Assembly (NCBI GenBank): GCA_019117005.1 | Contig: DXAO01000052.1 | Location: forward strand, 1-64,000 | Direction of reading: 5' to 3' | Source: Candidatus Collinsella stercoripullorum | Lineage (GTDB): Bacteria; Actinomycetota; Coriobacteriia; Coriobacteriales; Coriobacteriaceae | Length of the DNA stretch: 64,000 bases | Position numbers and translations under genes: made by a program | The notes under the pieces: generated by a model | Database searches by the model: none | What the model saw: only the letters and a program-made list of their open reading frames with translations | Told to the model about the DNA's origin: nothing | Shown: piece by piece, positions 49,945 through 60,146 of the stretch | Numbering within the stretch: the first letter of the stretch is position 1 | Layout of the letters: each line of letters starts with the position of its first letter

Positions 49945-50862
49945 CTAGGCAGCCTTTTGAAGGGCCTGCTCTCGGAACTCGACCGGGGTCAGGCCCTTCA
50001 GCCCGACCTGGCGCCTCACGTGGTTCCAGTGGCGGATGTAGGCCTCGAGGTCCGCCTTGAACGCTTCGAAGTCGTCCCAGTCCCTTCCCCGGAAGAACTC
50101 GTCCTTCAGGTGGCCGAAGACCTGCTCGGTCGCGCCGTTGTCCAGGCAGTCGCCCTTGCGCGACATGCTCTGGGTGAAGCCGTTGGCGCGCAGCGCGGAG
50201 ACGTAGAGGCCGTGCTGGTACTGCCACCCCATGTCGGAGTGCAGGATGGGCCTGGCCCCGTCGGGCTTCGCGGCCATGAGCATCGAGAGCATCTCCTCCT
50301 GCTGGGCGAGGTCGGGGCTCTCCGAGACCGACCACGCCACGATCTCCTTGCTGCCGAAGTCGTAGACCGGGGCGAGGTAGGCCCTGCCGAAGGAGAGCCT
50401 GAACTCGGTCACGTCGGTGCCCATCTTCTGCCACGGGCCGTCCGCCCTGAAGTCGCGCCCGAGCACGTTCTCGAAGGTCTCGCCGACGGCCCCCCTGTAC
50501 GAGCTGTACCTGCGGCGGCCGGCCCCGCGGCGGATGCCGCAGCGCAGGCCCATCTCGTTCATCATCTTGAGGACGGTCTTGTCGGCTATGCGGGCGCCGT
50601 CGACGGCCCGCAGCTCCATCGCCACCTGCCGGTGCCCGACGCCGTTCGGGAGCCTCCCGAAGATCTCGGCGACCCTGGGCCGGAGCTCCGGCCTGGTCGG
50701 GGCCTTCGGGTGCGAGAGCGCGTAGCAGCAGCTGGACCTGGCGAGGCCCGCGGCCCCCAGCAGGTCGGCGAGGCCGTGCCCCTGCCCTGAAAGCGCGGCG
50801 ACCGCTAGGGCCTTCTCCCGGTTCGGGAGCGCAGCTCCGCCTTCAGGGCTATCGATTGTTTT
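49945..50862 (-). CDS. IS3 OrfB transposase (DDE integrase)
   Basis: Frame entered from OrfA by -1 frameshift near 50859-50862; about 305 codons. Contains HTH_21-like SHPKAPTRPELRPRVAEIFG, GHRQVAMEL, LKMMNEMGLRCGIRR, then the catalytic DDE: GTDVTEFRLS (D), ILHSDMGWQYQ (D) and SMSRKGDCLDNGATEQVFGH followed by LKDEFF (E). Ends HVRRQVGLKGLTPVEFREQA. No internal stop, so the element may still be active. Confidence 0.9.
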   Translation of the reverse strand, partial: KTIDSPEGGAALPNREKALAVAALSGQGHGLADLLGAAGLARSSCCYALSHPKAPTRPELRPRVAEIFGRLPNGVGHRQVAMELRAVDGARIADKTVLKMMNEMGLRCGIRRGAGRRRYSSYRGAVGETFENVLGRDFRADGPWQKMGTDVTEFRLSFGRAYLAPVYDFGSKEIVAWSVSESPDLAQQEEMLSMLMAAKPDGARPILHSDMGWQYQHGLYVSALRANGFTQSMSRKGDCLDNGATEQVFGHLKDEFFRGRDWDDFEAFKADLEAYIRHWNHVRRQVGLKGLTPVEFREQALQKAA

Positions 50863-51293
50863 AGGTACGCCACCTCGGCCTCGAGCCTGCGCACCTCGCG
50901 CTCGAGCTCCTCCTCGCGCGTCGCGGGCGCGGCCTCCTTGCGCGGCCTGCCCTTGGGCCTCGGCCTGAGCGCCTCCGCCCCGCCCTCGCGGTAGAGCCTG
51001 CACCAGCTCCTCAGCGGCGACTCGCTCGCTATCCCGAAGCGCTCCATCGCCTCGGGCTTCGGCATGCCGCCGTCGACCACGGCGCTCGCCGCGGCGACCT
51101 TGGTCCCGTAGTCGTATCTCCTGTGGGTCCCCATGTCCAGCAGCGCATCCCTCCCGACGGCTCGGTACGTCTGCTGCCATTTTCTCACAGCCTTGGCCGG
51201 CACGCCGAGGCGCGCCGCGGCGGCCTTGTGGCCGAGCCCGCGGCCGAAGAGCCCGCAGGCCCGCCCCCTCGCCGACCTGTCGTAGACCGTCAT
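50805..51293 (-). CDS. IS3 OrfA (helix-turn-helix transposase subunit)
   Basis: 162 residues from ATG 51293. Two HTH units: GLGHKAAAARLGVPAKAVRK and GGMPKPEAMERFGIASESPL, followed by a leucine-zipper-like stretch EEELEREVRRLEAEVAYLKQ. The sequence at the end of this stretch includes CTA-AAA-C; the AAAA run (50859-50862, minus strand) is the likely slippery site for making the OrfAB transposase. OrfA reads on to a stop at 50805. Confidence 0.88.
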   Translation of the reverse strand: MTVYDRSARGRACGLFGRGLGHKAAAARLGVPAKAVRKWQQTYRAVGRDALLDMGTHRRYDYGTKVAAASAVVDGGMPKPEAMERFGIASESPLRSWCRLYREGGAEALRPRPKGRPRKEAAPATREEELEREVRRLEAEVAYLKQSIALKAELRSRTGRRP

Positions 51294-51352
51294 GGAAAAG
51301 CCTCCCATCTCTCGGACTTTACTTTCCGGTCCAAGAAATGGGAGGCAGTTCA

Positions 51353-51725
51353 CGGCCCCGCGCGTCCCTGAGCCTGCGCAGCGCCCGGACGCTGCGCCCC
51401 CGCGCCCGGCGCATCTCGCCCCCGCGCCGCAGCGGGCCACGGACGGTCCGGCAGCCGGCACGGCGGATGATGCCGCATCACCGAGTTCCCCGCGCTGGTG
51501 GGCAAGGGGTCCGCGGCGAACGTGCGCATCGGCGGGAACACCGCCATCTCGCGCGTCCATGCGAGCATCGCGTTTCTGGGGACGGGGTTCTCGATCGAGG
51601 ACAAGGCGTCCACCAACGGCACGGGCATCAACGGCAACGCGCTCGCCCCGGGGGAGCGCGTCAAGCTGAACGACGGCGACCGCATCACCCTCGGTGACGA
51701 GGACTTCATCGTCGAGATCAAATAG
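51353..51725 (+). pseudogene. Broken FHA-domain protein gene, 5' part missing next to the IS
   Basis: Codons 51471-51725 encode the C-terminal FHA core: RITEFPALVGKGSAANVRIG, GNTAISRVHASIAF, STNGTGINGNAL and DGDRITLGDEDFIVEI (phosphothreonine-binding residues around S-R-V-H and N-G-T). An in-frame TGA at 51468 precedes it. Another frame upstream (51353-51475) reads as a Pro/Ala-rich linker (PEPAQRPDAAPPRPAHLAPA) that would fit the same protein, so a frameshift near 51470 is likely. No start remains; the IS end lies immediately to the left and probably removed it. Confidence 0.65.
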
Positions 51726-51752
51726 CTCCCCCGCGAACGGCGGCGCCATGCC

Positions 51753-52685: not shown

Positions 52686-53396
52686 ATGTTCCACGTTGCG
52701 ATCTTGGAGGACGATCCCCGGCAGGCAGAGTCGCTCGCGCGCATGATCGAGGCCTCTCCCTGCGCCTCGCGCGTGGAGATCGTCGGGGTCGCCCAGCCAG
52801 CCGTCTCGCTCGCCGAGGCCTTCGGGGACGGCGTCGACATCCTGTTCGTCGACATCCAGCTCGGCGAGGCCCGCGCCACCGGCATCGACCTCGTCGACGC
52901 GCTCGCCCCGCGCGACGGGAGCATGCAGGTCATCTACGTCTCGGGCTACCTCGAGTACGCCTCGGACGTCTACCGGACCAAGCACACCTGGTTCCTCCCC
53001 AAGCCGGTCGAGCAGAGCGCGCTCGACGCGGCGCTCGAGCGCGCCATCGACAACCTGGAGCAGGCCCAGCAGCAGCCCCTGCTCGTGCGCGCCTCCGGCT
53101 CGCTCATCCAGATCCTCCCGCAGAACATCGTCTATGTGGAGAGCGAGCGCCGCAAGGTGCGCATCCACGAGCGCGGCCGCGTGATCGAGACCTACGCCAA
53201 GATGTCCGACATGGAGGCGAGCCTTCCGCGCCAGTTCGCGCGCTGCCATAAGAGCTTCCTGGTCAACATGAGCTTCATCTCCGAGCTCCGCGCCCGCGAC
53301 CTCGTGCTGCTCGACGGGACGGTGCTCCCGGTGAGCCAGCGCTGCCACAAGGCGCTGCAGCGCTGCTTCATCGACCATGTGGGACGCTCCGTGTAG
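52686..53396 (+). CDS. LytTR-family response regulator (AgrA-like)
   Basis: 236 residues from ATG 52686. Receiver: FHVAILEDDPRQAESLARMI, Asp in ILFVDIQLGEARATGIDLVD, VIYVSGYLEYASDVYRTKHT and FLPKPVEQSAL. LytTR DNA-binding domain: LIQILPQNIVYVESERRKVR, IETYAKMSDMEASLPRQFAR and CHKSFLVNMSFISEL. It is followed, with overlap or a 7-bp gap, by two kinase-like membrane genes. AgrA/FsrA-type systems usually answer peptide signals; no peptide precursor gene was seen nearby. Confidence 0.92.
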   Translation: MFHVAILEDDPRQAESLARMIEASPCASRVEIVGVAQPAVSLAEAFGDGVDILFVDIQLGEARATGIDLVDALAPRDGSMQVIYVSGYLEYASDVYRTKHTWFLPKPVEQSALDAALERAIDNLEQAQQQPLLVRASGSLIQILPQNIVYVESERRKVRIHERGRVIETYAKMSDMEASLPRQFARCHKSFLVNMSFISELRARDLVLLDGTVLPVSQRCHKALQRCFIDHVGRSV

Positions 53397-53403
53397 GGCC
53401 GCC

Positions 53404-54282
53404 GTGTCGGAGCTCGCGGCCTACATCCTCGTCCAGGCGAGCACCTTCGCCGTGACCATGGCGCTCGCCGGCGGCATGGCGATCATGCTGCCGATCCCCC
53501 GGCGCGTCCGCTATTTCGCGGCGATCGGCGCCGTGGGGCTCGTCTTCCAGCTCATCGGGTCGTCCGATGGCCTGCTCCGCGTCCTGAGCTTCGCCTCGTT
53601 CACGGGCTTCACGCTCGCCTCCTGCACGGGCCCCGTGCGCTTCCGGGTGCTCGCGATGGCCCTCGTCTACACCGCGGCGATCGCGGGGGAGGCGGTGTGC
53701 TCCGTCGTCAGCGTGGCCCTGCTGGGCGGCTTCGATTTCTCCATGGCGTTCCAGCTCGCGCATCCGGTGGAGTTCCTGTTCATCAGGCTGCTGGACACGG
53801 CCCTGATCATTGCGGGCTCCTACGCCTCCGCCCTCCTGTCCCGCCGCGTCGTCCACGGCGGCGAGTCGCGCCGTGCCGCCCTGATGATCCTCTTCATGCC
53901 GCTGCTCCAGGTCGTGCTGCTGATGGGGGCGCTCTACCTCCAGCTGAACGTCACCGGGATACATGCGGCGCTCTCGGCGGGCATCGCCGCGGCCGCCCTG
54001 CTGTTCTTCGCCGCCGACGTGCTGCTCGTGGTCACCATCGAGCGCATCGGGCAGGCGAGCGCGGAGCGGGAGCGCGCCCGCGCCATGGAGCGGCAGCTCG
54101 ACGGCTATCTCGAGCAGTACGCCGTCCTCGCGCGGCGCAGCGCCGCGATCGCGCGGCTGCGCCACGACGCCCGCAACAACGTGCAGGTCATTTCCGCCCT
54201 CCTCGACCGCGGCGCGTACGGGGAGGCGTCCGCGTACGCGGGGGAGTGCGAGCGCACGCTCGCGAAGCCGGACGGGCGGTGA
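53404..54282 (+). CDS. Kinase-like membrane protein with phosphoacceptor histidine but no ATPase domain
   Basis: 292 residues if GTG 53404 is used (ATG 53377 would add nine and overlap the regulator). Six or so membrane segments (LAAYILVQASTFAVTMALAG to LLFFAADVLLVVTIERIG), then a coiled coil (ERERARAMERQLDGYLEQYA) and the helical DHp-like segment IARLRHDARNNVQVISALLD (phosphoacceptor at about His254). The protein stops 38 residues after that His, where AgrC-type kinases continue into the GHKL ATPase domain. It overlaps the next gene by 4 bp. Confidence 0.75.
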   Translation: MSELAAYILVQASTFAVTMALAGGMAIMLPIPRRVRYFAAIGAVGLVFQLIGSSDGLLRVLSFASFTGFTLASCTGPVRFRVLAMALVYTAAIAGEAVCSVVSVALLGGFDFSMAFQLAHPVEFLFIRLLDTALIIAGSYASALLSRRVVHGGESRRAALMILFMPLLQVVLLMGALYLQLNVTGIHAALSAGIAAAALLFFAADVLLVVTIERIGQASAERERARAMERQLDGYLEQYAVLARRSAAIARLRHDARNNVQVISALLDRGAYGEASAYAGECERTLAKPDGR

Positions 54283-55214
54283 GCGCCGTGGAGAAGGTCC
54301 TCTTCGCGCTCTCCTCGCTCGCGATCGTGCTCGCGGCGGTGCACCTGCTCGTCGCGTCCCGCCACCGGTCGCCGTCGTATCGCGCACTGATGCTGCTGTT
54401 CCCGGTGAGCCAGCTCGCGGTGGTCGCGCTGACGGCCGCGGCGGTGCGGTGGCTCCAGGCGGGCTGGGGCTACTCGTGCTTCGTCTCGCTGTGCGGCCTG
54501 GTCGCGGCCGTGTACGACCCGCTGCTGTTCCGCGTGTTCGCCGAGGCTGAGGAGCGGGAGGCGGCCGCGGAGTACGCGCGGACCGTGGAGGGCCAGCTCG
54601 AGGTCCAGCGGGAGCACCTGGCGCGCATGCGGGAGGCGGGGCGCGACGCGGAGGAGATCAGGGCGGAGCTCGCCGGTCTGTTCGGCGAGCTCCGCGGCGC
54701 CCTCGATGCCCGCGACCCCGAGCTCGCGCGCACCCTGCTGCGGAAGGCGACCGACGTCGTGCCCCCGGCGGGCGCCTCGTTCTGCCGCAACCCCGCCGTC
54801 GACGCCCTGCTCGCCTCCAAGCTCACCCGCTGCCGCGAGCTGGGGGTGGAGCTGAACGTCCAGGCGGGGATCCCGATGGCGCTGACGCTGCCCGACCTCG
54901 AGGTCTGCGCGGTGCTCTCCAACCTGATCGACAACGCCGTCGACGCCGTCCGGGGGTTCGCGCCCGCCCGGCGCTGGGTGCGCGTCGTCTCCCGCGAGGC
55001 GCAGGGGTATCTGGTGATCGCGGTGGAGAACCCCGCCGACCGCGCCCCGCAGCGCAGGGTCCGCGCCGCCCTCGAGCTGGGGGAGGACGGGAGGATCCCC
55101 GAGCACGGCTGGGGGATCTCGATCGTGGAGGGCGTCGCGCGCCGGCACGCGGGCGCGGTGACGACGTCGTTCGAGGACGGCGTCTACACGGTCCGCGTGC
55201 TGCTGCACCTGTAG
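54279..55214 (+). CDS. Kinase-like membrane protein with GHKL ATPase but no phosphoacceptor histidine
   Basis: 311 residues from GTG 54279 (GTGA overlap). Three N-terminal membrane segments, a coiled coil (AEYARTVEGQLEVQREHLAR), then ARMREAGRDAEEIRAELAGL where a kinase would show RHD..N; the His is absent (GRD at 121-123). The ATPase is intact: N box CAVLSNLIDNAVDAVRGF (Asn215, Asn219) and G box HGWGISIVEGVARRH (276-290). Together with the gene before it, it could make one functional kinase from two chains acting on the LytTR regulator. Confidence 0.8.
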   Translation: MSAVEKVLFALSSLAIVLAAVHLLVASRHRSPSYRALMLLFPVSQLAVVALTAAAVRWLQAGWGYSCFVSLCGLVAAVYDPLLFRVFAEAEEREAAAEYARTVEGQLEVQREHLARMREAGRDAEEIRAELAGLFGELRGALDARDPELARTLLRKATDVVPPAGASFCRNPAVDALLASKLTRCRELGVELNVQAGIPMALTLPDLEVCAVLSNLIDNAVDAVRGFAPARRWVRVVSREAQGYLVIAVENPADRAPQRRVRAALELGEDGRIPEHGWGISIVEGVARRHAGAVTTSFEDGVYTVRVLLHL

Positions 55215-55496: not shown

Positions 55497-56366
55497 TCAG
55501 CGTCCGGGCCGCGCCGCGCGCACCTGCTCGATCACGTGTTCCATGGTTTCATCGATGCGGTCGCGCTTGAGCTGGCACTCCCAGACCGTGATGGCGGTCC
55601 ATCCGAGCTCCTCCAGCTCGGCGAGGGCGCGGGCGTCGCGTTCGACGTTGCGGCGGAACTTCGCCTCCCAGAACTCGGTGTTGCGCTTGGGCGTGCTCGG
55701 ATGGCAGTGGGGGCACCGGTGCCAGAAGCAGCCGTTGACGAAGATCGCGACCTTCCTCCCCGGGAACGCGATGTCCGGGCGCCCCGGGGCCTTCTTCCAC
55801 TGCAGCCGGTAGCCGGTGAGGCCCGCGGCGCGCAGGCGCTGCCGCACGAGCATCTCGGGCTTCGTGTCGGCGCGCTTGTTGCCCTGCATGGACCTGCGGA
55901 TCGCGGCGCGGCGGCGCACGAGCTCGGTCTCGGCCTCCTGCGCCTCCCCGTCGGATCGCGCGGATGCGGCGAGGGCCCGGACGAGCCCGATGTCGGCGGG
56001 CATCCAGTCCAGCGATTCCAGTGCTCCCCGGTCGACCCAGCGCAGGTCGAGCTGCCGGTCGCTGCGCTGCGGCTCGGTGTTGGCGCCCTCGGGGTCGATG
56101 CGGCAGAAGAAGCAGCTCATGGAGAGGTGGAAGTCGTCGTAGTCGTATTCCACGGTGTAGAAGTCCTGCAGGTCCGTGACCTGGATCCGCAGCTCCTCGG
56201 AGAGCTCGCGGGCACATGCCTGCTCGGGGGTCTCCCCGCGCTCGACCTTGCCGCCGGGGAACTCCCAAAGGCCCTGCATGGAGCCGTATCCGCGCTGGAC
56301 CGCCAGGACCTCGTCCGGGTTGCCGTCGCGCCGGATGATCCCCGCCGCCACATGTACCGTCTTCAC
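55497..56366 (-). CDS. NUDIX hydrolase fused to Vsr mismatch endonuclease
   Basis: 289 residues from GTG 56366 (GGAG seven bases upstream; ATG 56387 is the alternative). Residues 1-140 are a MutT-like NUDIX domain with box GGKVERGETPEQACARELSE then ELRI. Residues 160-285 are Vsr: MQGNKRADTKPEMLVRQRLR, YRLQWKKAPGRPDIAFPGRK, VAIFVNGCFWHRCPHCHPST, FWEAKFRRNVERDARALAEL and WTAITVWECQL. Vsr nicks T:G mismatches left by 5-methylcytosine deamination; MutT clears 8-oxo-dGTP or related nucleotides. No cytosine methyltransferase gene is adjacent. Confidence 0.9.
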   Translation of the reverse strand: MKTVHVAAGIIRRDGNPDEVLAVQRGYGSMQGLWEFPGGKVERGETPEQACARELSEELRIQVTDLQDFYTVEYDYDDFHLSMSCFFCRIDPEGANTEPQRSDRQLDLRWVDRGALESLDWMPADIGLVRALAASARSDGEAQEAETELVRRRAAIRRSMQGNKRADTKPEMLVRQRLRAAGLTGYRLQWKKAPGRPDIAFPGRKVAIFVNGCFWHRCPHCHPSTPKRNTEFWEAKFRRNVERDARALAELEELGWTAITVWECQLKRDRIDETMEHVIEQVRAARPGR

Positions 56367-56732
56367 CGCTGAGCTCCGTCCTCCCATTCCGATGCGCCTG
56401 CAGCGGCATCGTCGCCGCGGGCGCATCGGCATTGTACAGCGTCCGCGCCTCGCCGCCTTCCGGCGGGCGCTGACGGGCCGGCTGACGCTCCGCTGCGGGC
56501 CGGCGCGCCCTGCGGGATGCCCGCTGCCGAGTGAGAGGCGGGGTGCTCGCGGCGACCCTCGCATCCCGGCCGGCGCGCCCTGGGCCCCCTCCGGCCTCCG
56601 GTGCCCCGTCGGGCGTACGGCCCTCTCTTAAGCCTTCCGTAACCAACCTTACGAAATCGCAACGCACATGTAAGTCAAATCGATGGCTGCGCCGGAGGCT
56701 CCCTGCGAGTATAGGGTCAGGAGGTGGTTGTC
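56367..56732 (+). promoter_or_regulatory. Divergent regulatory gap with CGTAA/TTACG repeat
   Basis: CGTAA (56638-56642) and TTACG (56649-56653) around CCAACC form a short inverted repeat upstream of the ABC exporter operon; TATAGG near 56711 may be its -10 box. No gene is seen in the remaining GC-rich part. Confidence 0.4.
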
Positions 56733-56894
56733 ATGGAGGCAACGAACATGAACCGGTATCGGCCCAACCCCTATGATGTTCAGGATGAGAAGCGGAGCGT
56801 GGGGATGTCGGCGGTCGAGATGGTCCTGTGGCTGCTCGCGATGGCAGCGCTTTCGATTGCCATGATCTGGCTTCTGTGGAACGCGTCGCGCTGA
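56733..56894 (+). CDS. 53-residue single-pass membrane protein before the ABC exporter
   Basis: ATG 56733 with AGGAGGTGG about nine bases upstream, ending TGA 56894. The sequence has a short polar head (MEATNMNRYRPNPYDVQDEK) and one hydrophobic helix (MVLWLLAMAALSIAMIWLLW) with a tiny tail. It is the first gene before the ATPase and permease of a BceAB-type exporter. In staphylococci a similar-size membrane protein (VraH) joins the VraDE transporter; a comparable role here is suggested by position, not by clear sequence identity. Confidence 0.7.
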   Translation: MEATNMNRYRPNPYDVQDEKRSVGMSAVEMVLWLLAMAALSIAMIWLLWNASR

Positions 56895-56983
56895 AGGCGC
56901 GGCGCTGCAGCATCCGGCGGGCGCCGCGGTTCGCATCCGCGGCGCCCGCGGTACCGTACGACTTGAGTGAAAGGACCCATCAC

Positions 56984-57958
56984 ATGGGAAACACCATCGT
57001 CGACCCCCGCGACAGGGCATCAGTTGGCGGCGTCTACGTCGGCGGCGCGGCAGCCGGGACCCCGGTGCCGCCCGCGGCCCCCGGCGCGCCGTCGCAGCCG
57101 CGCGTCCACATGACCCTTCCCACGTCCCCGCACACCGGGGCGTCGGCCGCTGCGCCGGCGTTCGCGCACCGGGCGCCCCAGGGGCCCGCGCAGGCGCCCG
57201 TGCTCGACGTGCGCCATGTCGAGAAGGTCTACGGCGCCCGCAACAACGTGACGCGCGCCCTCGCGGACGTCTCGTTCACGGTCATGCGCGGCGAGTTCGT
57301 GGGCATCATGGGCGCCTCGGGCTCGGGCAAGTCGACGCTGCTCAACTGCGTGTCGACTATCGATGCCGTGACCAGCGGAAACGTCTTCGTCAACGGAGCG
57401 GACGTCACCGCGATGAAGTCCTCGAAGCTCACCCGGTTCCGCCGCGAGCAGCTGGGCTTCATCTTCCAGGACTCCAACCTGCTCGATACGCTCACCGCCC
57501 GCGAGAACATCGCCCTGCCGCTCACCATCAGCCGTGTCCCCGCGGCCGAGACGCTCAAGCGCGTCGAGGGCGTCGCCGCGCGCCTGTCGATCACCGAGGT
57601 GCTCGACAAATACCCCTATCAGATGTCCGGCGGCCAGCAGCAGCGCGTGGCGGCGGCCCGCGCGCTCGTGACCGACCCGGCGATCATCATGGCCGACGAG
57701 CCGACCGGCGCACTCGACTCCAAGAACGCGCGCTTGCTGCTCGAGTGCTTCCAGACCATGAACCGCGAGCTGTCCGCCACGGTCCTCATGGTCACGCACG
57801 ACAGCTTCGCCGCCAGCTACACGCACCGCGTGCTGTTCATCCGCGACGGGCGCATCTTCACCGAGCTGCGCCGCGGCGCCTCCAGCCGGCAGGAGTTCTT
57901 CAACCGCATCATGGAGGTCGTGGCTATGATGGGCGGGGAGGGTTCCGATGCTCTGTAA
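56984..57958 (+). CDS. ABC transporter ATP-binding protein, BceA/MacB type
   Basis: 324 residues from ATG 56984 behind AAAGGA. Residues 1-75 are a disordered Pro/Ala/Gly extension. Then a standard ATPase: Walker A GASGSGKST, Q-loop GFIFQDSNLLDTLTARENIA, signature MSGGQQQRVAAARAL, Walker B IIMADEPTGALD and switch MVTHDSFAA. The FQD.NLLDTLT..ENI pattern is the peptide-antibiotic detoxification (BceA) subtype. It overlaps the permease gene by 11 bp. Confidence 0.94.
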   Translation: MGNTIVDPRDRASVGGVYVGGAAAGTPVPPAAPGAPSQPRVHMTLPTSPHTGASAAAPAFAHRAPQGPAQAPVLDVRHVEKVYGARNNVTRALADVSFTVMRGEFVGIMGASGSGKSTLLNCVSTIDAVTSGNVFVNGADVTAMKSSKLTRFRREQLGFIFQDSNLLDTLTARENIALPLTISRVPAAETLKRVEGVAARLSITEVLDKYPYQMSGGQQQRVAAARALVTDPAIIMADEPTGALDSKNARLLLECFQTMNRELSATVLMVTHDSFAASYTHRVLFIRDGRIFTELRRGASSRQEFFNRIMEVVAMMGGEGSDAL

Positions 57959-60146
57959 GCTCGCATGGGGCAACGTGCGGCGCGCCGGCAGGGACTACCT
58001 GGTCTACCTGCTCACGCTCACGCTCGCCGTCACGGTGTTCTACGCGTTCAACACCGTTTCCATCCAGGTCGACCTCGCGGGCATCGCCAACGAGGGCCTG
58101 GCCGAAAGCCTCGGCGGCATCATCTCGGGCCTGACGGTCTTCCTCGCCCTGGTCATGGGCTTCCTCATGGTGTACGCCAACAACTTCATCATGAGGCGGC
58201 GCAAGAAGGAGTTCGGCCTCTACCAGGTGCTCGGTATGAGCCGCGGGCAGGTCGCGCGGATCATGGCGCTCGAGACCGTGTTCGTGTCGCTGGCGGCCCT
58301 CGTCCTGGGCGTCCTTCTGGGGCTCGCCCTGTCGCAGGTCATGACGTTCTTCACTGCGTCGCTGTTCAAGACGCAGATCGCGGACTTCCACTTCTTCTTC
58401 TCGGTCGACGCGTTCGTCATGACGGTCGGCTGCCTGGTTGCCATCTTCCTCGTCACGCTCGTGTTCAACCTGCGCGTGGTGGCGCGTGCCCGCGTCATCG
58501 ACCTCATGAGCGCGTCCCGCCGCAACGAGACCATCAAGACGCGCAACCCCTGGGTCTCCGCCGCGATCTTCGTGGTCGGCGCCGTCGCGATCGGGGTGGC
58601 CTACGCGCGCCTACTGCACGACGGCCTTCCCTACGACGGCACGAGCGAGGGCATGCGCGAGTTCCTCATCACCACCGTCACCGTCGTGGTCGGGACCATC
58701 CTGTTCTTCTTCGGGCTCTCGGGCTTCCTGCTCAAGGCGCTCCAGGGCGTGCGCGGCCTGTACTGGCGCGGCCTCAACATGGTCACGATGCGCCAGCTCG
58801 CCGCCAAGGTGAACACGGTGAGCTTCTCGATGGCCGTGATCGCGATGATCCTGTTCCTCGCCATCACGGCGGTCACGACGGGCATGTCCATCGCCGACGT
58901 CATGAACGCCAGCGTGGAGCGCGGAACGCCGGTCGACTACGCCACGGCCATCACGTACTACAGCGACGAGACGGCCGCCGAGCTGAACGCCGACCCCACG
59001 GCGACGGGCGGCGAGGGCGGCGCGGTGTTCGGCGCCGCCGAGCAGCCCATGGACGTCATGGAGATGAGCGCCCGCCAGACCGTCGATGCGGATACGGCTG
59101 AGGCCCGCCCCTTCGACCTCGCGTCCATCACCGGGTCCTCGGTGCAGGTCGACCTCTACGATTCGACCCCGCGTGGGGCGTCCATGCCGGTCGTCACCCT
59201 GAAGGACCTGTGCGACCTCGTGGACATGCCGCTGCCCCAGGGCGCGGAGAGCTCGGATGTCGCCTCCCTCGGCCTGATGGTGATCTCCGAGAGCAACTAC
59301 AACGAGTACCTCGCGTTCCGGGGCATGGAGCGGATCGACCTGGGGGCGGACGGCTACACGCTCCTGAGCGATATGGGTGAGACCGTCAACAGGATCTACG
59401 ATGCGGTGCTCGGGAAAGGCGTCGAGCTCGAGATCGGCGGGAGGACCCTCAGACCGGTGCAGGACCGCGTGAACGCCGACGCGAGCGTGTTCATGAACTC
59501 GATGATGGGGATGAACTCCGGAACCATCGTGCTGCCCGATGAGATGCTCGCCGAGCTCGACCTGCCCCCGTATATGAGCTACCTCATGGTGAACTACGCG
59601 GAGGGCGTCGACCCCCAGGACGCCGAGGACTACATCGACGCGCCCCGGACCTACGGCGATGTGACCGACGCATCCGGGCGCATCGTGGGCGGATGGGGCA
59701 TGGAGGCCACGCGGACCGAGACCTACCAGGGGGTCGACTCCATGAACGGCCTGATCAGCTACCTCGCCATCTACATCGGCTTCGTGCTCGTGGTGGCCTG
59801 CGCGGCGATCCTCACCATCCAGCAGCTCTCCGGGGTCTCCGACGCCGGCTCCAACTACCGCATCCTCTCCGAGCTGGGCACCTCGCGGCGCGAGATCGGG
59901 CGGTCGGTGCTCGTGCAGCAGACGATCTTCTTCGTCTTCCCGCTCGTGGTCGGCATCGCGCACTCCGCGATCGCCCTGTCCATCATCGTCGACCTCGTGG
60001 CCGTGTTCGGCGGCCTGACCATCGAGGGGACGGTCGGGTTCACGGCGCTCATCTTCCTGATTGCCTACGGCGGGTACTTCGGCGTGACCTACCTCATGAG
60101 CCGGGGCATCGTCCGGGACGCCGTGCGCACCCGGCACGCGGAGTAG
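57948..60146 (+). CDS. FtsX-like ABC permease, BceB type
   Basis: 732 residues from ATG 57948. LAWGNVRRAGRDYLVYLLTL opens the family. FtsX cytoplasmic motif FIMRRRKKEFGLYQVLGMSR. About ten membrane helices; a large extracellular domain of about 260 residues (from MNASVERGTPVDYATAITYY to DVTDASGRIVGGW) sits between late helices, as in BceB/VraE. Such transporters remove or sense cell-wall-targeting peptides. No BceRS kinase pair lies adjacent; the VanRS-like and LytTR systems in the window are separate. Confidence 0.92.
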   Translation: MLCKLAWGNVRRAGRDYLVYLLTLTLAVTVFYAFNTVSIQVDLAGIANEGLAESLGGIISGLTVFLALVMGFLMVYANNFIMRRRKKEFGLYQVLGMSRGQVARIMALETVFVSLAALVLGVLLGLALSQVMTFFTASLFKTQIADFHFFFSVDAFVMTVGCLVAIFLVTLVFNLRVVARARVIDLMSASRRNETIKTRNPWVSAAIFVVGAVAIGVAYARLLHDGLPYDGTSEGMREFLITTVTVVVGTILFFFGLSGFLLKALQGVRGLYWRGLNMVTMRQLAAKVNTVSFSMAVIAMILFLAITAVTTGMSIADVMNASVERGTPVDYATAITYYSDETAAELNADPTATGGEGGAVFGAAEQPMDVMEMSARQTVDADTAEARPFDLASITGSSVQVDLYDSTPRGASMPVVTLKDLCDLVDMPLPQGAESSDVASLGLMVISESNYNEYLAFRGMERIDLGADGYTLLSDMGETVNRIYDAVLGKGVELEIGGRTLRPVQDRVNADASVFMNSMMGMNSGTIVLPDEMLAELDLPPYMSYLMVNYAEGVDPQDAEDYIDAPRTYGDVTDASGRIVGGWGMEATRTETYQGVDSMNGLISYLAIYIGFVLVVACAAILTIQQLSGVSDAGSNYRILSELGTSRREIGRSVLVQQTIFFVFPLVVGIAHSAIALSIIVDLVAVFGGLTIEGTVGFTALIFLIAYGGYFGVTYLMSRGIVRDAVRTRHAE

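Follow-up and report, generated by a model that had tools for sequence, protein, structure and literature searches.

A putative split AgrC-like receptor histidine kinase encoded by two membrane proteins in Coriobacteriales

The operon and its neighborhood

The window, i.e., the whole analysed stretch of 64,000 nucleotides from Candidatus Collinsella stercoripullorum (contig DXAO01000052.1, positions 1 to 64,000), contains an operon composed of a LytTR-family response regulator and two membrane proteins, designated here chain A and chain B (table 1). The coordinates, the reading frames, the 4-bp overlap and the upstream regulator reported in the initial annotation were all re-found in the sequence, and the hydrophobic segments of the two chains agree with its description of both as multi-pass membrane proteins. 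The start of chain A was set at 53404 and not at 53377, as it matches the starts of its relatives. The GTGA overlap of the two genes likely reflects translational coupling, and 4-base stop/start overlaps of this kind are common in the A/B loci of the relatives.

Table 1. Features of the kinase operon and of its neighborhood (positions are those of the window)
Feature	Position	Strand	Basis or remarks
LytTR-family response regulator, 236 aa	52686..53396	+	Pfam Response_reg 5e-10 (REC, D56), LytTR 3e-20 (DNA-binding)
Chain A, 292 aa, GTG start	53404..54282	+	Seven hydrophobic segments, DHp helix with RHDARN, without ATPase
Codon for chain A His254 (phospho-acceptor)	54163..54165	+	Sequence, translation, invariance
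GTGA, 4-bp overlap of chain A stop and chain B start	54279..54282	+	Sequence
Chain B, 311 aa, GTG start	54279..55214	+	Three hydrophobic segments, degenerate DHp (A129 for His), GHKL ATPase
NUDIX (MutT-like) and Vsr mismatch-endonuclease domains joined in one ORF	55497-56564	-	
ABC transporter ATPase and FtsX-type permease	56828-60146	+	
IS3-like transposase (HTH and rve ORFs) abutting an FHA-domain gene remnant	49945-51749; 51498-51725	-; +	

The ABC transporter and the FtsX-type permease adjoin the operon, and the same arrangement is found in Collinsella tanakaei (L060); they could be either a target of the system or an unrelated neighbor. The joined NUDIX-Vsr gene is also located downstream of a kinase pair in C. 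tanakaei (L005, 2855-3862). Just upstream of the operon, the FHA gene seems to have been cut short by the IS3-like element; the intact counterpart of this gene, 236 aa long (zinc-ribbon-like N-terminus and FHA), is found at the corresponding site in C. tanakaei (L060, 393-1103).

Complementary domains of chains A and B

The only Pfam match of chain A is a sub-threshold one to SPOB_a, the Spo0B-type helical His domain, at residues 247-278. No HATPase match was found in it with Pfam, and the NCBIfam models gave no match to it either. The same picture applies to the 67 A chains collected, where SPOB_a matches 43 and the HATPase models match none. In these sequences, with a mean column identity of 22%, H254 is the sole invariant column, followed by D255 (kept in 65/67) and N258 (64/67). 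The matching column of B is mixed, and this contrast between the chains is more than would be expected by chance. The AF2 model of chain A (pLDDT 93.2) shows a long helix that extends from the last TM segment past H254; a second, short DHp helix (272-287) follows, after which the chain ends. A Foldseek search of this model against the PDB gave no significant match, and thus no solved relative of the membrane fold of A is detectable. Both Pfam and the model therefore agree with the earlier claim that the first protein carries the His in RHDARN without an ATPase.

Chain B carries the missing part. HATPase_c_5 matches it at 207-309 (1.7e-10), in addition to a HATPase_c match, in line with the assignment of the GHKL ATPase to the second protein only, while NCBIfam returned just models of other kinases, far below their cut-offs. 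HATPase_c_5 was found in 57 of the 58 B chains and SPOB_a in none. Conservation of the ATP-site columns N215, D218, N219, N251, G277 and G279 reaches 90% or more in these chains. The AF2 model (pLDDT 90.8) has three hydrophobic segments and a C-terminal alpha/beta fold. Its best PDB matches are the kinase module and the ATP-binding domain of Staphylococcus aureus AgrC (6e95, 6e52 and 4bxi), with a TM score of 0.76 of the target for 4bxi; AgrC is also among the sequence matches of chain B. The structure models which had been proposed as a check, built for each chain singly, thus place the end of A after its DHp and an AgrC-like ATPase fold at the end of B. According to hydropathy, stand-alone B chains have three hydrophobic segments in 42/58 cases and two in the other 16.

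A profile-profile alignment of the 67 A with the 58 B chains (gapless, 98.7%, E 2.8e-16) sets residues 30-164 of B in register with residues 154-289 of A. These 135 columns include two TM helices and the DHp, which makes A and B paralogues over this region. The R253-H254-D255 of A stands opposite to R128-A129-E130 of B, within IRAELAG. The initial annotation had read GRDAEE (121-126) as the His site of B; the absence of the His was correct but not the placement, as GRDAEE begins eight residues ahead of the position aligned to H254. A His occupies this position in three of the 58 B chains, in the contexts RHV (two near-identical chains) and RHR, hence never followed by Asp, and the column is otherwise mixed. 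In one more B chain (L063), an HD precedes the aligned position by eight or nine residues.

Judged from the aligned sequences, B corresponds to the last part of the membrane domain of A together with the DHp, followed by the ATPase missing from A. The two would be duplicated sensor chains, each having lost the complementary half, with the ATPase remaining in B, and in A the phospho-acceptor His together with the more extensive sensory membrane domain.

Distribution, gene pairing and natural fusions

The A and B profiles were run independently against whole genomes of the family and then of the class, and a wider draw of the phylum was also searched. These searches replaced a contig scan with degenerate patterns from the B alignment, which gave three loci only due to the shortness of the patterns. 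The loci were picked by profile score, which favors split-type sequences, and the family and order names of the relatives rest on named Collinsella records.

Within Collinsella, both chains are present in three of the 45 genomes, that of the window included, and they are always adjacent. C. tanakaei ET30 has two A/B loci. The window pair shares 38% (A) and 46% (B) identity with its nearest relative and 24% and 33%, respectively, with a second C. tanakaei pair; in all of these pairs RHD is found in every A and in no B. The search of other Coriobacteriia for the same gene order and complementary losses, suggested at the outset, located the A/B pair in three families of the order, and no split locus had a full kinase core in both chains. 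Matches to A below 1e-20 were found in 41 of the 348 sampled genomes of the class, all inside the order. In the wider phylum sample (396 genomes), matches outside the order were located only in open frames of at least 457 aa, i.e., of the size of complete kinases. HATPase_c loci number about 20 in the genome of the window itself, and some of them, in contigs 14 and 24, are other kinases next to LytTR genes; the split pair is thus not simply the general form of the LytTR kinases of this organism.

ORFs were classified in 70 fetched stretches. Separate A and B genes occur together in 57 of them, accompanied by a LytTR regulator in 52, and in another five stretches A and B are in one frame, all of these with the regulator. 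The order regulator-A-B is found in 32 stretches and regulator-B-A in six. A lacks B in three stretches and B lacks A in three, all at contig ends. Considering the assessable stretches with separate genes, 57/59 hold A and B together, with the exceptions of an orphan B (L176) and a short decayed B relic (L182). The orphan is a B-type ATPase chain (L176, 4140-5210, +) with no A or regulator nearby, in an apparent purine-biosynthesis neighborhood, and looks like a partner left alone or a relic.

Several operons carry more than one A, namely A-B-A, A-A-B, A-regulator-A-B, A-A-A-B and an array of two B and four A. In the array (L163; G233 contig 16, 10500-25500), regulator, B, A, A, A, B and A follow each other in about 8 kb, which suggests several His chains mixed with two ATPase chains. 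In the multi-A operons that were checked, identity between the two A chains is only about 26-35%, and each is closer to its counterpart in other genomes (e.g., 70% and 97% between L070 and L071). Two different His chains are thus maintained next to a single ATPase chain. With two or three A per B in several operons, the A:B stoichiometry is not simply 1:1 everywhere.

The REC Asp (D56) is conserved in all 36 aligned regulators of split loci. The distances of A and B correlate with 0.89, and with 0.69 when the regulator is partialled out, as opposed to 0.36 for A-regulator and 0.28 for B-regulator; part of this co-divergence may come from the inheritance of the operon as a unit. The flanks of 15 loci showed no conserved gene, and hence no common candidate for a target or a ligand gene.

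Chains A and B are naturally fused in four genomes from three genera (L164 and L167 of one genus, L170 and L175). Each fused chain is 630-680 aa long. Seven hydrophobic segments precede the RHD, and after a linker come two more such segments and then the ATPase. The B part thus has two segments instead of the usual three of stand-alone B; as it is attached to the cytoplasmic end of A, this number keeps the ATPase cytoplasmic. A fifth candidate (L146) was rejected as a fusion; its A part is without the N-terminal half in frame and three hydrophobic segments lie between the His and the ATPase. In the tree of the ATPase domains, split B and fused chains group apart from single-chain kinases, with the fusions in more than one place and weak support for the deep branch (SH-aLRT 55). 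A single origin of the split seems likely from these sequences. The fusions that keep the parity of the segments, together with a co-divergence of A and B above that with the regulator, support a physical partnership of the two chains.

Proposed mechanism and relation to known systems

The division of labor, with the His on A and the ATPase on B, is well supported and bears out the idea that one chain supplies each part: the His is found in 67/67 A chains, the ATPase in 57/58 B chains and in 0/67 A chains. The operon very probably encodes a heteromeric split receptor kinase similar to AgrC/HPK10, in which B would phosphorylate A and A would pass the phosphate to the LytTR regulator. That the complex is specifically a heterodimer and that neither chain would work alone is inferred, as are the phosphotransfer and the stoichiometry.

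In such a complex, A and B would assemble in the membrane, most likely via the last two TM helices and the DHp hairpins. The ATPase of B would phosphorylate H254 of A, as expected from two-component chemistry, and the phosphate would then be handed to D56 of the regulator, which would bind DNA through LytTR. Since the split is kept across the whole order, two different receptors probably must come together for a signal. Free A may also dephosphorylate the regulator, as the HDxxN motif, a marker of potential phosphatase activity (PMC3591291), is retained in A. In that case the split kinase would be bifunctional and of the type for which a model in PMC3591291 gives bistability.

An unlikely alternative is that A and B cooperate as separate homodimers, where B2 phosphorylates A2 and the latter acts as a phosphotransfer protein similar to Spo0B. 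A DHp-like hairpin, which could homodimerize, is retained in each chain, and the Spo0B-type domain is the only one recognized in A by Pfam; against this alternative, each fusion joins one A to one B in the same polypeptide, and the homology of A and B extends through the TM and DHp surfaces by which kinases dimerize. Spo0B itself is soluble, a phosphorelay transferase that has no multi-TM domain. It resembles chain A in its helical DHp-like His domain, to which the SPOB_a matches refer, and differs in that A is membrane-embedded and paired with B.

It is quite improbable that B is an ATP-binding accessory pseudokinase, which regulates A allosterically while a complete histidine kinase of the cell phosphorylates A. 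Candidates for such a kinase are provided by the many HATPase_c loci of the genome, some of them beside LytTR genes; yet the ATP-site residues of the N-box and G2 type are conserved in B as stated above, A is without B only at contig ends, and fusion into one chain recurs. The breakage of one full kinase gene by a frameshift, a sequencing error or pseudogenization, which the A-then-B order with a tiny overlap would suggest in a single genome and which had been named as a possible refutation, is excluded for practical purposes by the recurrence of the split across three families, in dozens of loci that have diverged from each other (at 38-47% identity already in two other Collinsella genomes), by the own start and membrane helices of every B, and by the relation of A and B as overlapping paralogues rather than two ends of one gene.

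The heteromeric split kinase is closest to the AgrC/FsrC-type (HPK10) kinases, which carry the His and the ATPase in one chain. The polytopic membrane domain and the RHDxxN-type DHp are shared by chain A, the GHKL ATPase of the HATPase_c_5 kind by chain B, and the adjoining LytTR-REC regulator is common to both systems. On the contrary, the two functions in the window lie on two membrane proteins and only rare fusions combine them. As the one-chain feature fails, the pair is not a strict member of AgrC/HPK10. No AgrB/AgrD-like genes were recognized by eye in the flanking ORFs of 15 loci, where short precursor genes could escape.

The general feature of split histidine kinases, i.e., His and ATPase on separate chains of which neither is complete, is present here. 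In Mycobacterium tuberculosis, the His and ATP-binding parts reportedly lie on two gene products (Rv0600c and Rv0601c) with one regulator, TcrA, and this is said to be a single-locus peculiarity of a conventional kinase; it is neither an order-wide family of paired receptors nor AgrC-type, unlike the window pair.

Two chains acting as one kinase are described for CheA3/CheA4 of Rhodobacter sphaeroides (PMC3591291) and for Hik36/Hik43 of Synechocystis (PMC7656254), and CheA3, the His chain, carries phosphatase activity (PMC3591291), for which the HDxxN kept in A may be compared. These are CheA-type chemosensory systems, whereas A and B are polytopic, AgrC-type and served by one LytTR regulator; none of the CheA domains (Hpt P1, P3 dimerization, CheW-like P5) had a Pfam match in A or B. 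Discussions of split histidine kinases usually draw on CheA examples and on the domain counts of single proteins (PMC3591291).

The splitting of a histidine kinase as such is already known from these examples. The arrangement had been presented as not known, which is not valid for the principle (CheA3/CheA4, PMC3591291); for this form, the open-licence papers searched gave no description. What appears to be new is that both halves are integral-membrane receptors of the AgrC type, with an order-wide distribution, more than one His chain beside an ATPase chain in several operons, and naturally occurring fusions.

With slightly less than even confidence, the loci may be regarded as a family, spread over the order, of receptor kinases that are obligate heteromers. 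Exchangeable His sensor chains (two or three different ones in some operons) would share one ATPase chain, and signalling would require two different receptors at the same time, as an AND-gate or a bistable switch. Such a family would amount to a large and conserved membrane-receptor version of split kinases, with the fusions as built-in evidence of the partnership, and would suggest how Coriobacteriales of the gut may integrate two membrane signals. It also allows a direct test of whether a split kinase with the phosphatase motif on its His chain gives ultrasensitive or bistable responses.
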